A stretch of DNA of 64,000 nucleotides from positions 329,541 through 393,540 of the forward strand of contig JAENZX010000001.1 in assembly GCA_016841045.1 (NCBI GenBank), in the 5' to 3' direction. The translations under genes and the position numbers were made by a program. The notes below the pieces were generated by a model. That model did no database searches, was not told where the DNA came from, and saw nothing but the letters and a program-made list of their open reading frames with translations. The DNA is from Thermincola carboxydiphila (GTDB lineage: Bacteria > Bacillota > Thermincolia > Thermincolales > UBA2595). Positions 20,792 to 21,106 of this stretch are shown here, one piece after another; position 1 is the stretch's first letter, and every line of letters begins with the position of its first letter.

Positions 20792-21106
20792 TCAAAAATA
20801 TCCTATAGAATATAGAAAATATGCAAAGCTAGCAAAAGTTAACCCCGTCGATATCCACAATATAATTTTTTGCTTTCGATGCATAATAGACGATTTTTTC
20901 CAAGAAATCCAATGAGCTACTGTCAGGAAAACGACGCTTGAAGCTATAAACCACCATTGATACTTGGCAAAAAACGTTAAAGTTGAAAGCATAGATCCAC
21001 CCAGACCGAGCGAAATCACTAATATAGGAAGCACTCAGGTTAGGCAGGCAAAGGTTGCCGAAACTATCGTTAAACCCTGCGTAAACTTGTCCTTCCAAGA
21101 ATTCAT
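20792..21106 (-). CDS. MerT-like membrane protein with CxxU, candidate selenoprotein
   Basis: 104 residues if the TGA at 21035-21037 is read as selenocysteine. ATG 21106 has a perfect AGGAGGGTGACCC upstream, yet without read-through it would give only 23 residues. In frame: KFTQGLTIVSATFACLT-U-VLPILVISLGLGGS, then two more membrane segments. Mercuric-transport (MerT) proteins have paired cysteines at this place in the first helix; here they are Cys21 and Sec24 (CxxU). A SECIS-like hairpin with a GGUCU loop follows. Gene callers would report only the 80-residue C-terminal part from a GTG without a ribosome site. Ligand unknown: Hg, Cu or another thiophilic metal, or thiol redox. Confidence 0.88.
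20994..21017 (-). promoter_or_regulatory. SECIS-like hairpin of the MerT-like gene
   Basis: Minus strand: GATT, bulged T, CGCTC, loop GGTCT, GGGTG, GATC. The loop starts 28 bases after the UGA. A bulged U below a GGUC-containing loop is the arrangement known from the E. coli fdhF element that SelB recognises. Confidence 0.8.

Follow-up and report, generated by a model that had tools for sequence, protein, structure and literature searches.

MerT-like proteins that carry selenocysteine (Sec, U) have been recorded before. A listing of prokaryotic selenoproteins includes a 'putative mercuric transport protein' of family PF02411 with a C/SxxU motif, represented by ABB16073.1 from Carboxydothermus (PMC13188914, PMC9312934). 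Here we consider a gene at positions 20792 to 21106 (minus strand) of a 64,000-nucleotide stretch of Thermincola carboxydiphila (contig JAENZX010000001.1; the whole stretch is called the window below) that is predicted to encode such a protein, together with the rhodanese gene next to it. The window protein fits the published C/SxxU family by its motif, its match to ABB16073.1 being judged from the listing; both are MerT-like and CxxU, and a complete genome of 2,401,520 bp (G055) has the same kind of gene, with the motif GCITU. The family is thus not new. The additions here are a split into CxxU and CU subtypes and the pairing of the CxxU subtype with a rhodanese, neither of which we found mentioned in the one table row that those two sources give. 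The pairing was also not found in the other literature examined, whose coverage does not include the most relevant works, and the novelty of the link is unproven.

Comparison with described systems

Gram-positive MerT (NF033560), as encoded on plasmid p1 of Cytobacillus firmus, resembles the window's protein family in its length of about 100 residues, its three predicted helices and a nearly end-to-end alignment, and the identity between one CxxU protein (L029) and the Cytobacillus firmus protein is 46%. It differs in having an adjacent Cys-Cys pair and in being followed by merP and merA, whereas the CxxU genes are followed by a rhodanese gene. The window protein matches NF033560 with an E-value of 1.7e-10 (41 bits, under the cut-off of 130) and Pfam MerT with 4.6e-5 (23.9 bits, under the cut-off of 32.9). 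All 25 aligned homologues match NF033560 (best 2.6e-27) and 24 match Pfam MerT. In the first helix, where functional MerT has an adjacent Cys pair, the window protein has CxxU, and scanning the surrounding window genes with family models found no merR, merP or merA. Judging by these profile scores and motifs, the protein likely belongs to the MerT superfamily and would not be a MerT equivalog.

The nearest NCBIfam selenoprotein model, NF045683 (MerT/CopZ fusion-like heavy metal transport selenoprotein), also describes a MerT-like selenoprotein, but it is a 235-position fusion model, against which the window protein scores 24.8 bits for a cut-off of 375. The YeeE/YedE importers of thiosulfate and sulfane sulfur are comparable in mode of action only, as membrane sulfur transporters with reactive Cys or Sec residues and sulfur-carrier partners. 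To our knowledge they are larger than the MerT-like protein and unrelated to it in fold. A Sec form of YeeE/YedE, with the motif GUxSG, is also listed (PMC13188914).

A MerT-like frame read through UGA

The reading frame begins at an ATG at 21106, 6 bases after a Shine-Dalgarno sequence, AGGAGGG (21113 to 21119, minus strand). It meets a TGA at codon 24 (21035 to 21037), continues for 80 further codons and ends at a TGA at 20794-20792, so that read-through would give 104 residues, starting MNSWKDKFTQGLTIVSATFACLTUVLPILVISLGLGG. The ribosome site, the TGA after 23 codons and the MerT-like continuation had been proposed in a first-pass annotation made from the sequence alone, and all three held on re-reading. 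Hydropathy around the UGA agrees with a first transmembrane helix at about residues 11 to 35, which contains both Cys21 (TGC, 21044 to 21046) and U24. These two residues form the motif CLTU. The first-pass annotation was right that the Cys lies three residues before the UGA and that the UGA occupies the column of the second Cys of MerT. Its description of the motif as a plain CxxC-to-CxxU replacement does not stand, because the canonical MerT pair is adjacent (CC).

Standard gene finding is expected to truncate this gene, as the first-pass annotation foresaw, or to omit it, since the open reading frame (ORF) list for the locus holds only an 80-residue fragment starting at GTG (20792 to 21034) and an overlapping out-of-frame ORF. 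The GTG-initiated frame (GTG 21034) was considered as a separate gene and rejected, given that every homologue retains the part before it along with the Cys and the UGA. Mechanical ORFs of 140 residues (20306 to 20728, plus strand) and 94 residues (20829 to 21113, minus strand) overlap the rhodanese and MerT-like genes, and a gene caller could choose these wrong frames instead.

Searched with a profile, 27 of 398 genomes of the phylum gave MerT-like genes, about 30 homologues in all, nearly every one with exactly one internal stop, a TGA. In the 28 homologous frames that were extracted (2903 codons), there is one in-frame stop each, always UGA and always in the same column. The start codons lie about 20 codons upstream of the UGA, mostly behind a clear ribosome site. 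In true MerT proteins of mer operons this column holds a Cys, as in that of Cytobacillus firmus (AACCLGPL), which supplies the Cys-containing homologue called for by the first-pass annotation. Compared over the part after the UGA, the window protein and L025, its nearest homologue, have a nonsynonymous rate (dN) of 0.24 and a synonymous rate (dS) of 1.94; for a closer pair (L035 and L037) the values are 0.016 and 0.32. A further comparison, L043 with L047, was discarded because an indel shifts the two out of register. These rates indicate purifying selection on the protein past the UGA.

The machinery to decode the UGA is also present. The genome that contains the window (4.16 Mb in 75 contigs) has selA (635 bits), selB (360 bits), selD (400 bits) and a tRNA-Sec (selC) with anticodon UCA, the four genes that the first-pass annotation had said to look for. 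Across genomes, selA occurs in 24 of the 25 with the UGA form and in 256 of the 398 overall (Fisher p 3e-4), and the sole UGA-form genome that lacks it (G175) is 89% complete.

A hairpin downstream of the UGA

Bacterial selenocysteine insertion sequence (SECIS) elements are hairpins that closely follow the UGA and have GU in their apical loop. In the window such a SECIS-like hairpin lies at 20994 to 21017 (minus strand), and its loop, GGUCU (21007-21003), starts at a distance of 28 bases from the UGA. On its own, this piece folds into a stem of five pairs above one bulged U, in agreement with the first-pass annotation. Its fold energy is ordinary (z-scores of 0.05 and -0.55) and an Rfam search at the hairpin gave nothing significant. 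With single-sequence scores near zero, and one sequence being no proof, we relied on comparative evidence.

The 25 aligned homologues share a stem of eight pairs capped by a loop of five bases. The loop starts 28 bases past the UGA and reads GGUCU in many of them. The cells of the aligned stem are paired in 81% of cases, against 69% in shuffled alignments, and the covariation score is 0.402, against 0.225 +/- 0.021 in shuffles (none of 500 as high) and at most 0.24 in slid registers. The loop-closing pair occurs as CG, AU, GC, UA and GU, and 12 sequences have changed on both sides. Both columns are third codon positions, and the coupling is therefore not readily explained by the protein sequence.

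Taken on sequence evidence, UGA24 is almost certainly recoded as Sec in a SelB-dependent manner, with the hairpin just downstream serving the recoding. The alternative, a genuine stop codon or a sequencing error ahead of a decaying frame, would agree with the unremarkable energy of the single hairpin. It is scarcely credible in the face of the same single UGA with intact flanks in 28 frames from many families, the purifying selection past it, the Sec machinery and the covariation of the hairpin.

Two subtypes and a conserved rhodanese neighbour

The family alignment splits in two. In the CxxU subtype, to which the window protein belongs, the Cys lies three residues before U; in the CU subtype it directly precedes U, so that CU is the MerT pair with its second Cys replaced and its adjacency kept. 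In the sampled loci, a rhodanese gene stands directly downstream on the same strand in 14 of 14 CxxU loci and in none of 14 CU loci. It is the sole neighbour conserved throughout the CxxU loci, the others having changed. Almost all of these rhodaneses have a lipobox, and that of L031 is apparently membrane-anchored instead. Some CU genes adjoin genes for ArsR, MerR, CopA-like or CopZ-like proteins.

Four genomes (G012, G058, G131 and G097) carry one gene of each subtype. The window's genome has a second CxxU gene (motif CISU), again followed by a rhodanese gene (locus L002), and a Cys-only relative (L003). Carboxydocella thermautotrophica, a cultured species, also has the MerT-like and rhodanese pair. 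In a tblastn search of plasmids, the CxxU protein L029 matched 3840 records and a CU protein (L052) matched none.

In the window, the rhodanese (20357 to 20761, minus strand; Pfam Rhodanese, E 2.6e-21) lies immediately downstream of the MerT-like gene and is predicted to be a lipoprotein, with the lipobox LITGC and a catalytic-loop Cys in CHMGPMG. Immediately upstream is lgt, for prolipoprotein diacylglyceryl transferase (21177 to 21956, minus strand), which is also directly upstream in a Carboxydothermus-like locus (L095). Family models place a CsoR/RicR-family metal-sensing repressor downstream of the rhodanese (19991 to 20341, minus strand), and a CopA-type heavy-metal P-type ATPase with two HMA domains at 17218 to 19770 on the same strand.

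Possible functions of the CxxU protein

The pairing of the CxxU protein with the rhodanese is evident from conserved gene order. As to function, the first-pass annotation had made a very broad guess, thiophilic-metal or thiol redox work; what lies around the gene suggests sulfur transfer. A sulfur relay fits established chemistry well, since sulfur is held on rhodaneses as a Cys persulfide and persulfides are readily attacked by selenolates. We suspect that a three-helix inner-membrane selenoprotein with Cys21-x-x-Sec24 in its first helix works with an exported lipoprotein rhodanese on the outer face. The rhodanese would load sulfane sulfur onto its active-site Cys and from there onto the membrane protein's Sec/Cys pair. 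The sulfur, or its reducing equivalents, may then be taken by the membrane protein to the other side. Geometrically this proposal repeats the mercury relay from MerP to MerT, a persulfide standing in for Hg(II) and the rhodanese for MerP. Gene order follows the same scheme, given that in mer operons merT is followed by merP, for the exported mercury carrier, and the CxxU loci have the exported rhodanese in that position. A relay in which the rhodanese hands sulfane sulfur or reducing power to the membrane pair is the simplest way to read this arrangement.

The first competing explanation is that the CxxU protein is a true carrier of thiophilic metals (Hg, Cu or Ag), the rhodanese merely supplying sulfide or persulfide that traps metal outside the membrane. 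The matches of the aligned members to NF033560 and Pfam MerT fit such a role, as does the heavy-metal ATPase gene that precedes the L031 homologue. However, MerA is absent above the NCBI curated cut-off from all 25 genomes with the UGA form, the window's included, so that imported mercury would lack a reductase. The best MerA score among them, 439 bits in G369, is just under the cut-off of 454, and a divergent MerA in that genome is conceivable. Metal genes are moreover not conserved neighbours, whereas the rhodanese is, and real mer operons have an adjacent pair, CC or CU, which the CxxU protein does not retain. We consider the metal-carrier role unlikely, and likewise classical mercury uptake in the UGA-form genomes. 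The lack of a MerA above the cut-off and the rhodanese in the MerP position together lead us to favour a persulfide relay over mercury uptake.

In a second alternative, the CxxU pair would be a thiol-redox relay that, like DsbD/CcdA, passes electrons across the membrane to the exported rhodanese or to other exported thiols, with no atom moved. CxxU is a common redox motif of prokaryotic selenoproteins (table in PMC13188914), a thioredoxin-reductase-like protein is encoded two genes before the paralogue in L002, and CcmH-like genes lie near L094-L096. Against this, a lone Cys/Sec pair in a three-helix protein would require a dimer or partners to span the membrane, and reductase genes are not conserved neighbours. 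A redox relay of this kind seems to us about as improbable as a metal carrier.

Several observations weigh against the sulfur relay. Both its presumed cargo, sulfane sulfur, and its inward direction are inferred. The rhodanese loop in the window, CHMGPMG, is unusual in lacking the customary CxxGxR, which makes it uncertain that the protein acts as a classical thiosulfate sulfurtransferase. The CsoR-type repressor, which has a Cu-like Cys-His-Cys pattern, and the CopA-type ATPase follow the pair on the same strand and fit a metal role, which makes a role in copper or silver handling possible. Some of the 14 CxxU loci are near-duplicates from sister species, and the rhodanese association may stem from a single ancestral event, the tree being compatible with one CxxU origin; the loci are thus not 14 independent events, although the pair has been kept nonetheless. 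Finally, an AlphaFold model of the MerT-like protein, built on an alignment of three rows, has three helices at low confidence (mean pLDDT, the predicted local distance difference test, 61.8) and was too poor to serve as a fold-search query. Among solved structures, searching by sequence yielded nothing better than a weak match to MerF (E 0.17).

Weighing these points, we see the whole account, a SelB-recoded three-helix protein of the MerT superfamily acting with an exported rhodanese as a sulfur relay, as evenly poised between right and wrong. A bolder form of it, in which the CxxU protein and rhodanese constitute an undescribed two-gene transporter of sulfane sulfur (or selenium), derived from a mercury carrier and with the Sec of helix 1 carrying the chalcogen, is offered tentatively and strikes us as somewhat doubtful.

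Other genes with in-frame UGA

The SelD of the window's genome (L022; C30:141219-142142, minus strand) is itself a selenoprotein form, with an in-frame TGA in SLSCSAGUAAK. A small protein with an in-frame UGA, DCGGGUGSS (L002:474-803, minus strand; C3:74272-74601), is encoded close to the second CxxU gene and the rhodanese that follows it; no Pfam or NCBIfam match was found for this small protein. It has relatives in 29 of the 398 genomes; most of the stronger ones have one TGA and several weaker ones have none. By sequence it looks like another, putative selenoprotein family. In the same locus, the frame of an FmdB-type zinc-ribbon protein (L002:191-394, minus strand), near the two Sec genes, runs one codon past its TGA (CGGG-UGA-G-stop), which is probably a plain stop.

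A genuine merR-merF-merT-merA operon on plasmid 2 of Enterococcus faecalis ATCC 29212 (L061:2495-2794, plus strand; NZ_CP008814.1:21527-21826) encodes a MerT with an in-frame UGA at the same column (ASLCUIG) and an intact ACCACUUGGUCUAAGUGGU hairpin. Several other Enterococcus faecalis plasmids match at an unannotated MerT-like position. Enterococcus faecalis is described as having SelD but no Sec decoding (PMC2432076), and the L061 gene may therefore be unreadable in its present host.

Implications

The window offers a clear case in which standard annotation loses a conserved membrane protein. A selenoprotein so far listed from one accession turns out to comprise two widely distributed subtypes, for which the gene neighbours predict different jobs. 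Should the pairing with a rhodanese mean sulfur transfer, the idea that a small Sec protein moves sulfur across the membrane would be directly testable.
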